DNA from: Candidatus Parcubacteria bacterium
Lineage (GTDB): Bacteria; Patescibacteriota; Minisyncoccia; JAHIHE01; JAGLIN01
Assembly (NCBI GenBank): GCA_023132875.1
Contig: JAGLXN010000039.1
Span: 1 to 33,540, forward strand
Direction of reading: 5' to 3'
DNA: 33,540 bases
Under the pieces are notes generated by a model. That model was not told the DNA's origin, searched no databases, and saw only the letters and a list, made by a program, of their open reading frames with translations. The number at the start of each line of letters is the position of its first letter. Positions within the stretch are counted from its first letter, which is position 1. Made by a program: the position numbers and the translations under genes. Of the stretch, positions 7,852-28,033 are shown piece after piece.

Positions 7852-8865
7852 TTATAACAAAGTATTTTTATTATCTTCTGGACATTCAATTCCTAAATGC
7901 TCATAAGCCAGCTTAGTTGCTTTTCTTCCGCGCGGAGTTCTTTCTATAAACCCCAGCTGAAGAAGGTAGGGCTCATATACATATTCAATTGTGTCTTCTT
8001 GATCTGAAAGGCTTGCAGCCAAGGTTGAAACGCCAACTGGACCGCCACTAAACTTTTTGATAATAACTTCCAAAATTTTTCGGTCAGTATGTTCCAATCC
8101 ATGACAGTCTATTTCCAAATATCTAAAAGTTTCATCCACTATATTTTCGTTAATAATCCCGTCTCCTTTTACTTGAGCGAAATCGCGAACTCTTTTTAAA
8201 AGGCGATTAGAGATTCTGGGGGTCTGTCTTGAGCTTTGCGCTATTTTTTTAGCTCCGGCAGAATCAGTCTCTATCCCTAAAATTTTACTCGATCTTTTTA
8301 TTATATGTTCAATTTCTCTATTGTCATAAAAATCAAGTCTTGGTGAAATTCCGAAACGATTCAAAAGAGGAGAAGAAATAAGATCTATTCTTGTTGTTGC
8401 TCCAATAAGCGTGAATTTTGGAAGGTCTAGTCTTATGGTTCTGGCAGATGGTCCTTTTCCTACTATTATATCAAGCATATAATCTTCCATCGCCGGGTAA
8501 AGGATTTCTTCAATTAATTTGTTTAGTCTGTGAATTTCGTCTATAAACAGAATATCTCCATCTTCCATATTAGTAAGTATTGCTCCAAGATCACCGACTT
8601 TTTCAATTGCTGGACCTGAAGTTATTCTAATGTTTTTGCCCATCTCATTCGCGATCAAATGAGATAATGTTGTTTTCCCGAGTCCGCTTGAACCATGGAA
8701 TAATATATGTTCAATTGTTTCATTTCTTTTCTGTGCGGCTTTTATTAGAATCTCAAGGTTCTTTTTAATTTTTTCTTGTCCAACAAAATCATCAAGGCAA
8801 TTTGGCCTTAAAGATAATTCAAAATTTGTATCTTCTTCTTTTTCTTTTGAGTCAGTTATTTTCAT
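7852..8865 (-). CDS. ruvB: Holliday junction branch migration DNA helicase RuvB
   Basis: '[21 protein letters not shown]', Walker [14 protein letters not shown], Walker [12 protein letters not shown], '[22 protein letters not shown]', '[12 protein letters not shown]'. Confidence 0.97.
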
Positions 8866-8976
8866 GATATCATACTAACATCTTAACATATTAACATTTT
8901 AACATATAACTAAGATTTTAGGTAATGTTAATAATGTTTATATGTTATTATGTTAAAATGTTAAAATGCGATGGGG

Positions 8977-9005
8977 TTGACAAGATTAAGTTTATCTGTT
9001 AAACT
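8977..9005 (+). promoter_or_regulatory. Sigma70-type promoter for the ncRNA candidate
   Basis: TTGACA (8977-8982), 17-nt spacer, TAAACT (9000-9005) with extended -10 TGn. Confidence 0.65.
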
Positions 9006-9011
9006 GTTTTG

Positions 9012-9187
9012 TTAGGTTAAAAGCGTTTAACAATTTGTAGACAGTTGGGGATATTATCCCAGACACGGGTAGTTTGGGTTCCTGTATTGGAATTTTCTGG
9101 TCTATTCCTCGGAAATTTCTCCACCCTTATTCTTTTAGAAGTTGAGGATCTAGCTGTCTGCAAATTGTTGAACGCTTTATTTTTTTA
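9012..9187 (+). ncRNA. Structured small RNA candidate (6S-like size, family not assigned)
   Basis: 25-bp closing stem (9020-9044 with 9154-9178, two G.U pairs), internal hairpins, U7 tract at 9180-9186, consensus promoter just upstream, no convincing ORF. Confidence 0.6.
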
Positions 9188-9287: not shown

Positions 9288-10229
9288 ATGACTGTAAAAG
9301 AAACTTTGAGTAAAGAAAGAAAAATAATAATAATTGCGGTTTTTATTATGTTTTTACTACTGACTTTATTTTACAAATGGCAGCTTATAACTTCAAGCGG
9401 ATATTTATTTCTCGGGAACGAAAGCTATAAAAGTAAAGATTATGATGAATCTCTGAAAAACTATAAATACGCGGCAGCTATTGATGGTAATAGGAATACA
9501 ACATACCTAGCCAAGCTAAAAAGGTCAGAAATATTTTATTCGCATGGACTGCTAGACGAAGCAGAAAAAGAATTAAAAATGGCAATAAAAGAAATAAAAA
9601 ATGATTTCAAGGCATACGAAGTTATGGGCGATGTTTATTACGCAAAAAGAGATATTTCTGATTCCATAAGCTGTTATGAAAAAGCTATTGAGCTGAAAGA
9701 TAAAGAAGAAATAAACATTAAATTGGCAAAAAGTTTTATGGCGGAAGGAAATATCGGCAAGGCTAATGATATTTTTTTAAAGTTATATTCAGAAAACAAT
9801 CACAACATTGCAATTTCGTATTATTTGGGACTTCTTGACTTTTATAGAAATGAATCTTATAATGATTATTTTCAAGAGGTTGAAAAAGTCAATGACGCGA
9901 ATTATAAAGAAAAAATCAATAAAATTAAAGAGTATTTGGATAATTATGGCAATATAAAAAATGAAGTTTATAGTAATATTTTAATTGCGGATTTGTATAA
10001 CACAATAAATGAACCATATTTGGCTATTGGGAAAAGCGAACTGGCAATAAATGAAAGTCCAGATTATAGGGACGCTTTTATCGTGCTAGGCAAGTCTAAT
10101 TTTATAATAGGGGATTATAAAAAATCTTATGAAAGTTTTAATAAAGCGTTTGAGCTTGACAGCCACAATCCAGAGATAAGTTTTTGGCTAGGAAGTGTTT
10201 ATGAAAAATTAGACCCCGTCCATAAATAA
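9288..10229 (+). CDS. TPR-repeat membrane-anchored protein, 3' end altered by an inserted palindromic element
   Basis: N-terminal TM, repeated TPR signatures; last residues DPVHK are encoded by the inserted element (10212-10366). Confidence 0.85.
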   Translation: MTVKETLSKERKIIIIAVFIMFLLLTLFYKWQLITSSGYLFLGNESYKSKDYDESLKNYKYAAAIDGNRNTTYLAKLKRSEIFYSHGLLDEAEKELKMAIKEIKNDFKAYEVMGDVYYAKRDISDSISCYEKAIELKDKEEINIKLAKSFMAEGNIGKANDIFLKLYSENNHNIAISYYLGLLDFYRNESYNDYFQEVEKVNDANYKEKINKIKEYLDNYGNIKNEVYSNILIADLYNTINEPYLAIGKSELAINESPDYRDAFIVLGKSNFIIGDYKKSYESFNKAFELDSHNPEISFWLGSVYEKLDPVHK

Positions 10230-10366
10230 CATTCTCAAGTTTACTCAGATTTGCGTCAGATTGGTTTGAAAAAAAATGAAGAATATTGCTATATACTGAA
10301 AGTTTTTTCAAACCAAGATGGCGTGAAGATGAGATGAAATTGTGGAGGTTATTTATGGACGGGGTC
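10212..10366. mobile_element. 155-bp MITE-like element with 19-bp perfect TIRs and TTA target duplication
   Basis: GACCCCGTCCATAAATAAC (10212-10230) and reverse complement (10348-10366); TTA on both sides; inner inverted repeat TTGGTTTGAAAAAA/TTTTTTCAAACCAA. Confidence 0.85.
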
Positions 10367-10506
10367 TTAGGCAATGATTTAAAAGCCCATGAATTTATGG
10401 ACAAATATAGAACATTGGCAAATGAATTATGAATTATGAATTAAGAATAAATATATAGTGCGTTGAAATAAAACTTTGCATAGGGCAAAGTCTTTTTAAT
10501 TTTTTT

Positions 10507-10740: not shown

Positions 10741-12450
10741 CTATCCTTTCCTGCTAAAAATCTCTCCCGTAACTCTTCTTATTTCTTCAAGCGAAGTTAA
10801 GCCTTCCAGAGCTTTTAATACCCCATCTTCTTTTATGGAGATCATTCCATCTTCTCTAATTGCTGACATAATGTCTGAAGAGGACGTATCTTTTAAAATA
10901 ATTTTTTCTATGTTCGATGTCATGGGAAACATTTCATAGATTCCAATTCGTCCGGAATAGCCGATAAAATTGCATTTAGAACATCCGCTGCTTCTGTAAA
11001 TGACTTTTATTTCGTTTGGAATTTTTATGCCATTATTTCTTGGTATATTTGAAAGCACCTCTTTTATTTTATCTATAGTTTCTTGAGCTGGAACATATTC
11101 TTCTTTGCAATGCGGGCAAAGCTTTCTAACAAGTCTTTGGGCGATAACAAGATTAATGGCTGGAGCAATTAACGCGGGATTGACTTTTAGATGAAGCAGC
11201 CGCGGTATTGCTCCTGCCGCGTTATTTGTGTGAAGGGTTGAAAGCACCATATGGCCGGTTAAAGCTGCTTGAATAGAAATTTCCGCTGTTTCAGGATCTC
11301 TTACTTCTCCAACCATTATAATGTCTGGATCTTGCCGCACGACTGCTTTTAATCCGTCAGCAAAACTCATTTCCTTGTCTTCCCCGACTTCAGTTTGAGA
11401 TATTCCTTCCACTCTGTATTCTACTGGATTTTCTAGAGTTATAATTTTTATGCTTGGCTGGTTTATTCTGCGGATAAAAGAATATAAAGTGGTTGTTTTT
11501 CCGCTTCCGGTTGGTCCTGTAGTTAATATCATTCCGGTTGGTTTTATAATTTGTTCCTCAACTTTCTCAAGATAATATTGGTTGAACCCCAGTTCATCCA
11601 GCTTGAGTCCTGTTATGCTATCTGATAAAATTCTTAAAACTATGCTTTCTCCAAAACTGCTGGGAAGGATAGAAGACCGTACATTTATTTGAGTATTTTC
11701 CAAGTTAATGCCAAAATGTCCGTCTTGCGGGATGTTAGAAATATTCAATTTCATTTTTGAAAGCATTTTTACTCTTGAAACTATGATTCTGTGGACTTTC
11801 TTGGGCAGTTTGACAATATCTTGAAGAACTCCATCAACTCTATATCTCAGCCTTATATAGTCTAAATTAGGTTCAATGTGAACATCGCTAGATTTTGTTT
11901 TTATGGCGCCAGCCATAATTATGTTAAATATTTCAGTCGTGTTTATTTCTGAAACTCTTTTTTTTAGGTCAATAATGCTGTTTATTCCTTTTTCAAATTC
12001 AGTCAGATCTTCTTTTTTTAATGATACACCGCTATCTTCAAATTTTTCCGTAACTGTTCCAATTTTATAACTTGTCCAAGCCTTCTTAAGACTGTCTTGC
12101 GAGACTATGACCAAATTATAATTTATTCCTTCTTCTTTTTTTATTTTTTCAAGAAGCTTTTTTGTCTCATATTTTTCCGGATCGATTACTGCTATCTGGA
12201 ATTTTTTACCTACTTTATAAATAACAGCCACATCAGCCTTTCGAGCATCTTCTTCCGGAATTGAATTTACAATTTCGGCTTCAACGGGGATCAGGTTCAA
12301 ATCCACATATGGCAGATTAAATTTGTTCGCGATAGCCGTTGCTCTTTCCTCTTCGCTTTTGTGATATAATCTTTTTATTGTTTCATCTTGAATTTTCTCT
12401 CGCAGTTCTTTTTTTTGGTTTTTATCATTTGTTTTAGTTACGCGTTGCAT
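10741..12450 (-). CDS. pilB: Type IV pilus assembly/type II secretion ATPase PilB/GspE
   Basis: Walker A GPTGSGKTTTLYSFI, 'VRQDPDIIMVGEVRDPETAEISIQAALTGHMVLSTLHTNNA', zinc motif CPHC...CSKC. Confidence 0.96.
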   Translation of the reverse strand: MQRVTKTNDKNQKKELREKIQDETIKRLYHKSEEERATAIANKFNLPYVDLNLIPVEAEIVNSIPEEDARKADVAVIYKVGKKFQIAVIDPEKYETKKLLEKIKKEEGINYNLVIVSQDSLKKAWTSYKIGTVTEKFEDSGVSLKKEDLTEFEKGINSIIDLKKRVSEINTTEIFNIIMAGAIKTKSSDVHIEPNLDYIRLRYRVDGVLQDIVKLPKKVHRIIVSRVKMLSKMKLNISNIPQDGHFGINLENTQINVRSSILPSSFGESIVLRILSDSITGLKLDELGFNQYYLEKVEEQIIKPTGMILTTGPTGSGKTTTLYSFIRRINQPSIKIITLENPVEYRVEGISQTEVGEDKEMSFADGLKAVVRQDPDIIMVGEVRDPETAEISIQAALTGHMVLSTLHTNNAAGAIPRLLHLKVNPALIAPAINLVIAQRLVRKLCPHCKEEYVPAQETIDKIKEVLSNIPRNNGIKIPNEIKVIYRSSGCSKCNFIGYSGRIGIYEMFPMTSNIEKIILKDTSSSDIMSAIREDGMISIKEDGVLKALEGLTSLEEIRRVTGEIFSRKG

Positions 12451-25358: not shown

Positions 25359-26666
25359 ATGATAATTGTAGCGATAGAGACATCGTGCGATGAAACAGCG
25401 GTTGCTATAGTAAAATTTAGTAGGAATAGGGCAGAAGTTTTATCTAATATTATTTCATCTCAAGTAAAGGCGCACAGCAAATATGGCGGGGTTGTGCCGT
25501 CTTTGGCGTCAAGAATGCATTTAAAAAATATGGTTCCGGTTTTGAAAAGGGCATTTAAGCAAGCTGAGAAACACACCCCTGCCCCTCTCAAGAGGGGAAT
25601 TCATTTCGACAAAAATAAAATTGATTATGTTGCAGTGACTAATGGACCTGGTTTAATCCCAGCATTAATGATTGGAGTTAATACAGCTAAATCATTGTCT
25701 TACGCGCTAAACAAACCATTAGTCGGCATTCATCATATTGAAGGGCATATATACGCGAATTGGTTGAAAAAGAATCTGGAATCTGGAATCTGGAATCTGG
25801 AAAATAAGAAACAAAAAGTGAAAAATGAAAAATTGAAGATGCAAAAGTTAGAAGATTCCAAATTCCAAAATTACGATCTATGGAAACCGGAATTTCCAAT
25901 TTTATGCCTTACAGTATCGGGCGGGCATACGCAATTAATTTTAATGAAGAAAGATTTGAATTATAAAATAATAGGTGAGACCATGGACGATGCGGCTGGC
26001 GAAGCGTTTGATAAAATTGCCAAGCTTTTAAATCTTGGTTATCCAGGCGGACCGCTGGTTGAAAAAATGGCTAAGAAGGGAGATAGGAATAAATTCAAGT
26101 TTACAAGACCTATGATAAACAGTAAGGATTATAATTTTAGTTTTTCTGGACTTAAGACAGCGGTTTTATATGAGGTTAGATCGCGGCAAACTTTTTCTCA
26201 CCTCGATTCCTGCCTGCCGGACAGGCAAGCTCTCCCAGAAGGAGAGAGAGTTAATTCCAAATTCTCCGCCCGAGGCGGACCAGCCTTGGGCTGGCAAATT
26301 CTCCGCCCGAGGCGGACCAGCCTTGGGCTGGCAAATTCCAAGTTCAAATCTGACATTGCAGCATCTTTCCAGCAGGCAGTAATTGATGTTTTAGTTTTTA
26401 AAACTATAAAAGCGGCGAAACAATATAAAGCAAAAAATATTATTCTCGGCGGCGGAGTGTCGGCGAATAGAGAATTACAGAAGCAATTTAAAAAAGCCAT
26501 AAATAAAGAATTACCAAATACTGAATACCAAATACTGAATACTAATCTATCAACCGACAATGCTTTTATGATTGCGATTGCGGCATATTATCGCATAAAA
26601 AATGATAAGGGAATTGGAAATTGGAAGAATATTAAGGCGGACGCGAATCTAAAAATAGAATCATGA
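25359..26666 (+). CDS. tsaD: tRNA N6-adenosine threonylcarbamoyltransferase TsaD, with repeat-derived in-frame inserts
   Basis: 'AIETSCDETAVAIV', 'VAVTNGPGLIPALMIGVNTAKSLSYALNKPLVGIHHIEGHIYAN', 'CLTVSGGHTQLILM', 'GGGVSANRELQ'. Confidence 0.96.
   Translation: MIIVAIETSCDETAVAIVKFSRNRAEVLSNIISSQVKAHSKYGGVVPSLASRMHLKNMVPVLKRAFKQAEKHTPAPLKRGIHFDKNKIDYVAVTNGPGLIPALMIGVNTAKSLSYALNKPLVGIHHIEGHIYANWLKKNLESGIWNLENKKQKVKNEKLKMQKLEDSKFQNYDLWKPEFPILCLTVSGGHTQLILMKKDLNYKIIGETMDDAAGEAFDKIAKLLNLGYPGGPLVEKMAKKGDRNKFKFTRPMINSKDYNFSFSGLKTAVLYEVRSRQTFSHLDSCLPDRQALPEGERVNSKFSARGGPALGWQILRPRRTSLGLANSKFKSDIAASFQQAVIDVLVFKTIKAAKQYKAKNIILGGGVSANRELQKQFKKAINKELPNTEYQILNTNLSTDNAFMIAIAAYYRIKNDKGIGNWKNIKADANLKIES
25773..25800 (+). 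repeat. 4 x AATCTGG heptamer array inside tsaD
   Basis: Four perfect tandem copies. Confidence 0.95.
26259..26332. repeat. Two identical tandem 37-bp twin-hairpin units inside tsaD
   Basis: aaattctCCGCCCGAGGCGGACCAGCCTTGGGCTGGc repeated exactly twice. Confidence 0.95.
26514..26541 (+). repeat. Heptamer array (CCAAATA CTGAATA)x2 inside tsaD
   Basis: Four 7-nt units alternating between two variants. Confidence 0.9.
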
Positions 26667-28033
26667 ATTATAAACAACATAATTCTATGGAAATAATTAA
26701 TGTCGGCGAAGAACAAAAAGAAATATGGAATAAATTCATAGCTGAAAACAATTCAGAAAGTTTTTTGCAGTCTTGGGAATGGGGAGAGTTTCAGAGCAAA
26801 ATTGGACGTAAGGTATGGAGAATCGGAATTGCTAATGATGATTTATCTGATGAAAATAGAACAAAAGTATCAAGTATCAAGTATCAAGTATCAAGCGACA
26901 ATTTGGTTGTCGTGGCTTTGATCGTAAAACACGATTTGCCGTTTGGACAGAGTTATTTGTATTGTCCTCGCGGACCAGTCATAGAAAAATCAAAAATCAA
27001 AAATCAAAAATCAAAATTTTTTGATGTTTTATTTGACGAAATTAAAAAAATTACTGAAGAAGAAAAAAGTTTGTTTTTGAAAATTGATCCGCCGATTAAA
27101 ATGAATCAGGAATCAGGAATCAGGAATCATGAATATTTTACTAATTTCAAAAAATCATCATCAGAAATTCAGCCGAGAGATACTTTAATTTTGGATATTA
27201 CAAAATCGGAAGAAGAATTATTGAAAGACATGAAGCAGAAGACAAGGTATAATATTCGGCTGGCAGGAAAGAAAGAGTTACGAATTACGAATTACGAGCT
27301 ACGAACGGATAATAAAAAAGTTTTTAAGGAAAAGTTTGAAAAATTTTGGGATTTGATCAAGGAGACTTCTAGGCGCGACAAGTTTGTTTCTCACAGCAAG
27401 GATTATTATTGGAAAATGTTTGAGAGCTTAAACAATAATTATTCTAAGAATGTCATTCTGAGGAGGAACGACGAAGAATCCCGAAGCTATACACACAAAA
27501 CTGTGGTACAAAATTATACAGTGTTAAATTCGGGATCCTTCGACTCGCTATCGCTTGCTCAGGATGACAGTACGCGTATCGGTAACAATTCTAATTTAAT
27601 TGCGAGATTATATCTCGCTGAATATGACAATAAAATCATCGCAGCAAACCTTGTCTTGTTTTTTGGAGATATGGCGGTCTATCTTCACGGAGCATCGTCT
27701 AATGAATATAGGAATGTGATGGCGCCGTATTCATTGCAATGGCGGCAGATTCTAGACGCAAAAGAGGCTGGATGCAAAAAGTATGACTTTTGGGGTGTGT
27801 CGGCAACGGTTCGACAGGCTCACCATGACATTCATCGACAGGCTCACTGTGACAATGGTGTCATCCTGAGCTTGTCGAAGGATAAAAAAGATACTTGGAG
27901 CGGCATTACAAGATTTAAAAAAGGGTTTGGCGGTTATGAGAAAAATTATATTGGCGCGTACGACCTGATTTTTAGCAATATCGGATATCGGATATATGGG
28001 TTTTTAAAGAGGATAAAGGATATTGTAACTTAA
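26663..28033 (+). CDS. FemAB-like peptidyltransferase (peptidoglycan bridge formation family) with multiple repeat-derived in-frame inserts
   Basis: 'ESFLQSWEWGEFQSKIGRKVWRIG', 'MKQKTRYNIRLAGKK', 'FFGDMAVYLHGASSNEYRNVMAPYSLQWRQILDAKEAGCKKYDFWG', 'GITRFKKGFGG'. Start may be 26687. Confidence 0.92.
   Translation: MNYKQHNSMEIINVGEEQKEIWNKFIAENNSESFLQSWEWGEFQSKIGRKVWRIGIANDDLSDENRTKVSSIKYQVSSDNLVVVALIVKHDLPFGQSYLYCPRGPVIEKSKIKNQKSKFFDVLFDEIKKITEEEKSLFLKIDPPIKMNQESGIRNHEYFTNFKKSSSEIQPRDTLILDITKSEEELLKDMKQKTRYNIRLAGKKELRITNYELRTDNKKVFKEKFEKFWDLIKETSRRDKFVSHSKDYYWKMFESLNNNYSKNVILRRNDEESRSYTHKTVVQNYTVLNSGSFDSLSLAQDDSTRIGNNSNLIARLYLAEYDNKIIAANLVLFFGDMAVYLHGASSNEYRNVMAPYSLQWRQILDAKEAGCKKYDFWGVSATVRQAHHDIHRQAHCDNGVILSLSKDKKDTWSGITRFKKGFGGYEKNYIGAYDLIFSNIGYRIYGFLKRIKDIVT
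26865..26892 (+). repeat. 4 x AAGTATC heptamer array in femAB-like gene
   Basis: Four perfect copies. Confidence 0.95.
26985..27012 (+). repeat. 4 x AAAAATC heptamer array in femAB-like gene
   Basis: Four perfect copies. Confidence 0.95.
27104..27131 (+). repeat. Heptamer array (AATCAGG x3 + AATCATG) in femAB-like gene
   Basis: Four units, the last with changes. Confidence 0.9.
27278..27305 (+). repeat. Heptamer array (TTACGAA x2, TTACGAG, CTACGAA) in femAB-like gene
   Basis: Four 7-nt units. Confidence 0.9.
27452..27568. repeat. 117-bp palindromic element inside femAB-like gene
   Basis: GTCATTCTGAGGAGGAACGACGAAGAATCCCG...CGGGATCCTTCGACTCGCTATCGCTTGCTCAGGATGAC, same family as 10507-10621. 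Confidence 0.93.
27807..27882. repeat. Second palindromic repeat cluster inside femAB-like gene
   Basis: GGTTCGACAGGCTCACCATGAC / TCGACAGGCTCACTGTGAC / GTCATCCTGAGCTTGTCGAAGGA inverted units. Boundaries approximate. Confidence 0.85.

Follow-up and report, generated by a model that had tools for sequence, protein, structure and literature searches.

A predicted free-standing structured RNA beside ruvB in a Parcubacteria-type class of Patescibacteria

Introduction

Patescibacteria represent a very large, mostly uncultured share of bacterial diversity and have severely reduced genomes. In one of them, a Candidatus Parcubacteria bacterium, a gap between ruvB and a TPR-protein gene raises the question of what a bacterium of this kind encodes there. 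The gap lies in a stretch of 33,540 nt (contig JAGLXN010000039.1, positions 1 to 33,540), here called the window. The initial annotation, made from the window alone, had proposed a structured non-coding RNA with its own promoter, resembling 6S RNA in size and layout; it would be a housekeeping RNA that had diverged, or else a new family. We asked whether such an RNA is present, how widely it is kept, to which family it belongs and what it might do.

The locus and its transcription signals

An RNA of about 170 nt was predicted at 9012–9187 on the + strand of the window. The features recognized in and around it were:

7852–8865, − strand: ruvB, divergent neighbour, conserved synteny
8977–9005, + strand: sigma70-type promoter, with the −35 box TTGACA at 8977–8982, a 17-nt spacer and an extended −10
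8997–8998 (TG) and 9000–9005 (TAAACT), + strand: extended −10, TGtTAAACT
9012–9019, + strand: predicted 5' leader and transcription start, placed by the distance to the −10; its length varies in relatives
9020–9044, + strand: P1 closing stem, 5' strand, AAAGCGTTTAACAATTTGTAGACAG (fold, covariation)
9047–9062, + strand: P2 arm, 5' strand, lower part, GGGGATATTATCCCAG (GGGATnTTATCTTAG as the class consensus)
9067–9077, + strand: P2 arm, 5' strand, upper part, GGGTAGTTTGG, preceded by a 4-nt bulge
9079–9092, + strand: apical hairpin specific to this family; elsewhere in the class mostly a UNCG-capped loop
9097–9122, + strand: P2 arm, 3' strand, containing the most conserved stretch, CTGGTCTATTCCTCGGAA (9097–9114)
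9125–9147, + strand: P3 hairpin, 3' of the junction; three pairs with changes on both sides
9154–9178, + strand: P1 closing stem, 3' strand, CTGTCTGCAAATTGTTGAACGCTTT (fold, covariation)
9180–9186, + strand: U7 run, an intrinsic-terminator-like 3' end, separated from P1 by a single A
9288–10229, + strand: TPR-protein gene that separates the RNA from pilB, a feature of this family alone
10741–12450, − strand: pilB-type type IV pilus ATPase gene, convergent neighbour, conserved synteny

The strong promoter of the initial annotation, TTGACA-17 nt-TGtTAAACT, was located in the window and recurs in homologs. TTGACA and the TGnTA of the −10 were invariant in 14/14 family homologs in a strand-corrected alignment. 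Class-wide, an exact TTGACA with a 16–17 nt spacer and a −10 preceded 39 of 50 representative copies, counted against a mononucleotide shuffle as control. The U7 ending is likewise matched by a U-run 3' of P1 in close relatives. The RNA would be transcribed constitutively from its own sigma70-type promoter, and P1 together with the U-run would probably end transcription.

Between ruvB and the promoter, at 8879–8968 of the window, there was an AT-rich inverted repeat with TGTTAAAATG-type repeats. Similar tracts were found upstream in some close relatives.

Fold, conservation and covariation

P1 paired at 25 of 25 positions with two G.U pairs, as the initial annotation had described; the same repeat was listed as inverted repeat I4. 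The folding energy was −67.4 kcal/mol, compared with −37.5 ± 3.8 kcal/mol for dinucleotide shuffles (z = −7.9), none of 200 shuffles being equally stable. The consensus structure had P1, an optional 5' hairpin, P2 and the P3 hairpin. The optional hairpin, 5' of the junction, was present in many class members, and the apical loops of P2 were mostly UNCG tetraloops with a U-A or C-G closing pair. From the interior hairpins originally proposed, TTCT/AGAA was retained as part of the conserved P3. GGGAT/ATCCC and GGAATTTTC/GGAAATTTC showed little covariation in the family and were replaced in the consensus by one long arm, P2.

Searched with the DNA sequence, 14 of 15 relatives from the same taxonomic family had a homolog, at 75–94% identity. 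The 15th genome had no ruvB match either, so the RNA region may be missing from it altogether. In the strand-corrected family alignment the P1 core AATTTGTAGACAG and the arm CTGGTCTATTCCTCGGAA were invariant or nearly so, the latter being identical in all 14 homologs. Class-wide, CUAUUCCUCGGAA in P2 was nearly invariant. Indels of one or two bases distinguish the loops within the family, a pattern that speaks against protein coding.

Both P1 and the P2 arm covaried strongly, and the closing stem was kept in the homologs. On the close-family alignment (A3), 96% of the cells in P1, P2 and P3 were paired and 10 pairs had changed on both sides; all five measures for this structure exceeded all 500 shuffles and all slid controls. 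The P2-P3 core was aligned for 40 diverse class-wide copies. Here 15 of the 24 P2 pairs had changed on both sides, a number reached by 0/500 shuffles. For the inner ten P1 pairs, 55 class-wide stems had double changes at nine positions; the near-complete pairing of these stems is partly by construction, since they were found by complementarity. Two G.U wobbles in P2 (columns 32-74 and 40-66 of alignment A7) were conserved in 39/40 and 38/40. Read on the + strand, the P2 cells had 252 G.U against 29 A.C, and this excess fixes the transcribed strand.

Distribution and gene neighbourhood

Two covariance models were used to follow the RNA across the class: R1, for the close-family structure, and R2, for the P2-P3 core. 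R1 matched 62 of 387 class genomes, almost always once per genome, and R2 matched 200 of the 387 under strict filters. There was one match per genome, apart from an antisense echo and one double at a contig end. In a sample of 382 genomes from the phylum, R2 gave 13 matches, all inside the same class, and none of the genomes sampled outside the class had a match. A gapped core pattern searched against GTDB species representatives recovered 31 loci, in MAGs titled Patescibacteria, Paceibacterota, Parcubacteria, Moraniibacteriota, Yanofsky-, Nealson-, Portnoy- and Azambacteria, and in one case "bacterium". As far as sampled, these searches suggest that the RNA family is restricted to one Parcubacteria-type class of Patescibacteria.

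We also considered 28 class genomes without a strict model match. A long stem beside ruvB, exceeding all shuffles, was found in 25 of these, several times with a promoter and the same P1 motif, although unrelated repeats may account for one of the 25 stems (L130) and perhaps for more. Most class members probably carry the RNA, which evolves fast. Some members seem to have none; at locus L147, for example, the gap between pilB and ruvB is 63 nt. That a few members seemingly do without the RNA indicates that it is not strictly essential.

In 35/36 distant loci from the first set, the RNA was flanked by divergent ruvB and convergent pilB. Most later loci had the same arrangement; the exceptions among them often lay at contig ends or retained one neighbour. 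The covariance model was made independently of these neighbours. With ruvB divergent and pilB convergent, a cis-regulatory leader or riboswitch was ruled out. The same-strand TPR gene, found in the window's family only, begins beyond the U7 run. The synteny is probably inherited gene order and not a functional link, because pilB and ruvB stay adjacent at L147, with a gap that could not accommodate the RNA.

Two 31-nt inverted repeats (AGACCCCGTCCATAAATAAC...; 87% complementary) lie 95 nt apart in the window, at 10211–10241 and 10337–10367, overlapping the 3' end of the TPR gene. The arm occurs only there in the own-genome sequence searched, and the small element looks MITE-like or terminator-like.

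Since the stem is followed by U7 and could terminate transcription, we considered whether the locus might be no more than a long terminator, a palindromic repeat or an IS end. Most homologs have their own promoter upstream of the stem, and the 100-nt interior is conserved and covarying, neither of which fits a terminator or a repeat. A single copy per genome at a fixed place also speaks against a repeat or an IS end; when R2 was run on about 1.04 Mb of the own genome, it matched once. The end of a mobile element was rejected, given one copy per class genome and fixed neighbours. With promoter, covarying interior and copy number taken together, these readings are extremely unlikely.

Elsewhere in the window, palindromic repeat-like in-frame insertions were seen at about 26190–26340 in the tsaD ORF (25359–26666) and at about 27790–27900 in the ORF at 26663–28033. 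Their sequences include CTGCCTGCCGGACAGGCA, and GACAGGCTCACCATGACA...CATCCTGAGCTTGTCGAAGGAT. These insertions in conserved genes recall repeated palindromic elements.

Comparison with known RNA families

A comparison with Rfam by cmscan, suggested in the initial annotation, assigned neither the locus nor its homologs to a family. At the locus, Rfam 15 gave no match at the gathering score and chance matches alone at E ≤ 10, and 16 homolog loci scanned at lax thresholds had no Rfam family beyond chance matches. The 6S model (RF00013) had no match at E ≤ 10 in the organism's own genome, at the locus or in the 16 homolog loci. A motif scan of the own genome, incomplete as contig C89 was half covered, revealed no recognisable 6S. 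Among 289 class genomes, RF00013 matched eight. In three of the eight the scores were 51.3 bits in G174 (above the cut-off), and 39.9 bits in G207 and 33.1 bits in G057 (both below it). In these three genomes the RF00013 match and the RNA of interest were on different contigs, and the 6S loci were without ruvB and pilB.

Four loci from G174, G207, G057 and G116 (L154, L155, L156 and L157) are Parcubacteria 6S RNAs, one of them above the Rfam threshold, and several have a GGGCACCCACCTGG-like core in common. In this class the Rfam model seems to miss some 6S RNAs.

SRP RNA was rejected as an identity for the locus, RF00169 having no match in 54 genomes and RF01854 none in 21. The Ffh M-domain (PF02978) was absent in 21/21 genomes and found in 14/14 controls, in agreement with a report of Parcubacteria without SRP RNA and Ffh (PMC4508563). 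The RNA here is like bacterial SRP RNA in being a housekeeping-type structured RNA, and differs in matching neither model and in occurring where the Ffh M-domain was not found in the genomes searched. A tmRNA was rejected as well, as the genome's tmRNA is elsewhere (126 bits), and so was RNase P RNA, with no match at the locus at E ≤ 10. L219 (about 8308–8860) may hold a diverged RNase P RNA into which AT-rich repeats have inserted; the match there is weak, partial and far below the Rfam threshold.

No description of the RNA was found in the open-access papers searched, and it could have been named earlier in published candidate-RNA lists outside Rfam. No known family fits, and we regard the RNA family as new, while its general kind, a free-standing structured bacterial RNA, is familiar. 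Conservation of the RNA, its promoter and its gene neighbourhood, together with covariation and the lack of an Rfam match, bears out the initial proposal of a free-standing structured RNA that is a diverged housekeeping RNA or else founds a new family.

The raiA-motif RNA and other orphan structured ncRNAs are broadly conserved and free-standing, with unclear function. By description, the RNA reported here resembles them as a broadly conserved free-standing structured RNA, and differs in having no Rfam match and in its taxa and context.

Possible function

Sequence comparison shows the promoter, the structure with P1, junction, P2 and P3, the strand, the single copy, the synteny and the retention across the class. 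We consider it reasonably probable (about 0.6) that 9012–9187 (+) is the gene for a stand-alone, trans-acting structured RNA that serves as a protein-binding scaffold or mimic in an RNP. The RNA would act in trans. The P2 arm, with its internal loops, wobbles and tetraloop, would form a protein-binding platform with the junction and the inner P1, whose sequence is conserved. A scaffold role is suggested because the conserved sequence sits in and around helices (the P2 internal loops, the G.U wobbles and the inner P1), and because very reduced genomes have each retained a single copy of the RNA. Such conservation, being outside open single strands suited to pairing, favours a scaffold over mRNA pairing.

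Several other functions were weighed against the scaffold. A regulatory sRNA that base-pairs with the mRNAs of pilB, ruvB or other genes would suit the conserved place beside pilB and ruvB; the conserved stretches are in covarying helices, however, and the synteny survives at L147 with a gap too short for the RNA, so that it need not be functional. We regard such pairing as unlikely. Two further alternatives involve RNA polymerase. One is a diverged 6S RNA, a rod-like promoter mimic that binds the RNA polymerase holoenzyme and templates pRNAs. The RNA shares with 6S a length of about 150–190 nt, a single copy, a long closing stem, a 3'-side hairpin and a strong sigma70 promoter, and no 6S was recognisable in the incompletely scanned own genome. 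Against this, RF00013 matches neither the RNA nor its homologs, and G174, G207 and G057 carry this RNA in addition to RF00013 matches away from ruvB and pilB. The architecture also differs. P2 pairing starts a few nt past P1, leaving no single-stranded central bubble as in 6S. In place of the open bubble there is a junction of three or four helices, with an extra 5' hairpin in many members, and the conserved sequences are different. The 6S resemblance of the initial annotation does not extend to homology, which is already largely refuted by the silence of RF00013 and the separate 6S locus in class members, and a diverged 6S is very unlikely.

The other is an RNA of non-6S descent that nevertheless binds RNA polymerase, like Ms1 of mycobacteria, a precedent for a second structured RNA with this partner that is unrelated to 6S (PMC4191392). 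Both Ms1 and the RNA here are stand-alone structured bacterial RNAs unrelated to 6S. Ms1 comes from an unrelated phylum, and the two are set side by side by description. Known RNA polymerase partners include structured RNAs that are present once per genome behind a strong promoter. On this reading, a genome with a 6S RNA as well would carry two RNAs that bind RNA polymerase, and we find an Ms1-like role doubtful. A task in co-translational protein targeting, or another ribosome-linked task, could compensate for the lost SRP. The lack of SRP RNA in 54 genomes and of the Ffh M-domain in 21, consistent with PMC4508563, would agree with this, as would the same broad class-level distribution of the RNA. 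No SRP-like helix 8 motif is present, though, and the agreement is a correlation from one lineage, which makes compensation for SRP improbable. Both RNA polymerase binding and compensation for SRP, if correct, would be special cases of the RNP scaffold.

Returning to the scaffold, the RNA is probably an unrecognised housekeeping RNA of Parcubacteria/Patescibacteria. More tentatively, it may be the core of an undescribed housekeeping RNP in most of the class, possibly one that replaces a lost machine, e.g., SRP.

Significance

The alignments and models allow the RNA to be tested in metatranscriptomes and in enrichments containing Parcubacteria. A structured RNA kept at one place class-wide, in bacteria that have apparently lost SRP RNA, hints at an unrecognised core function.
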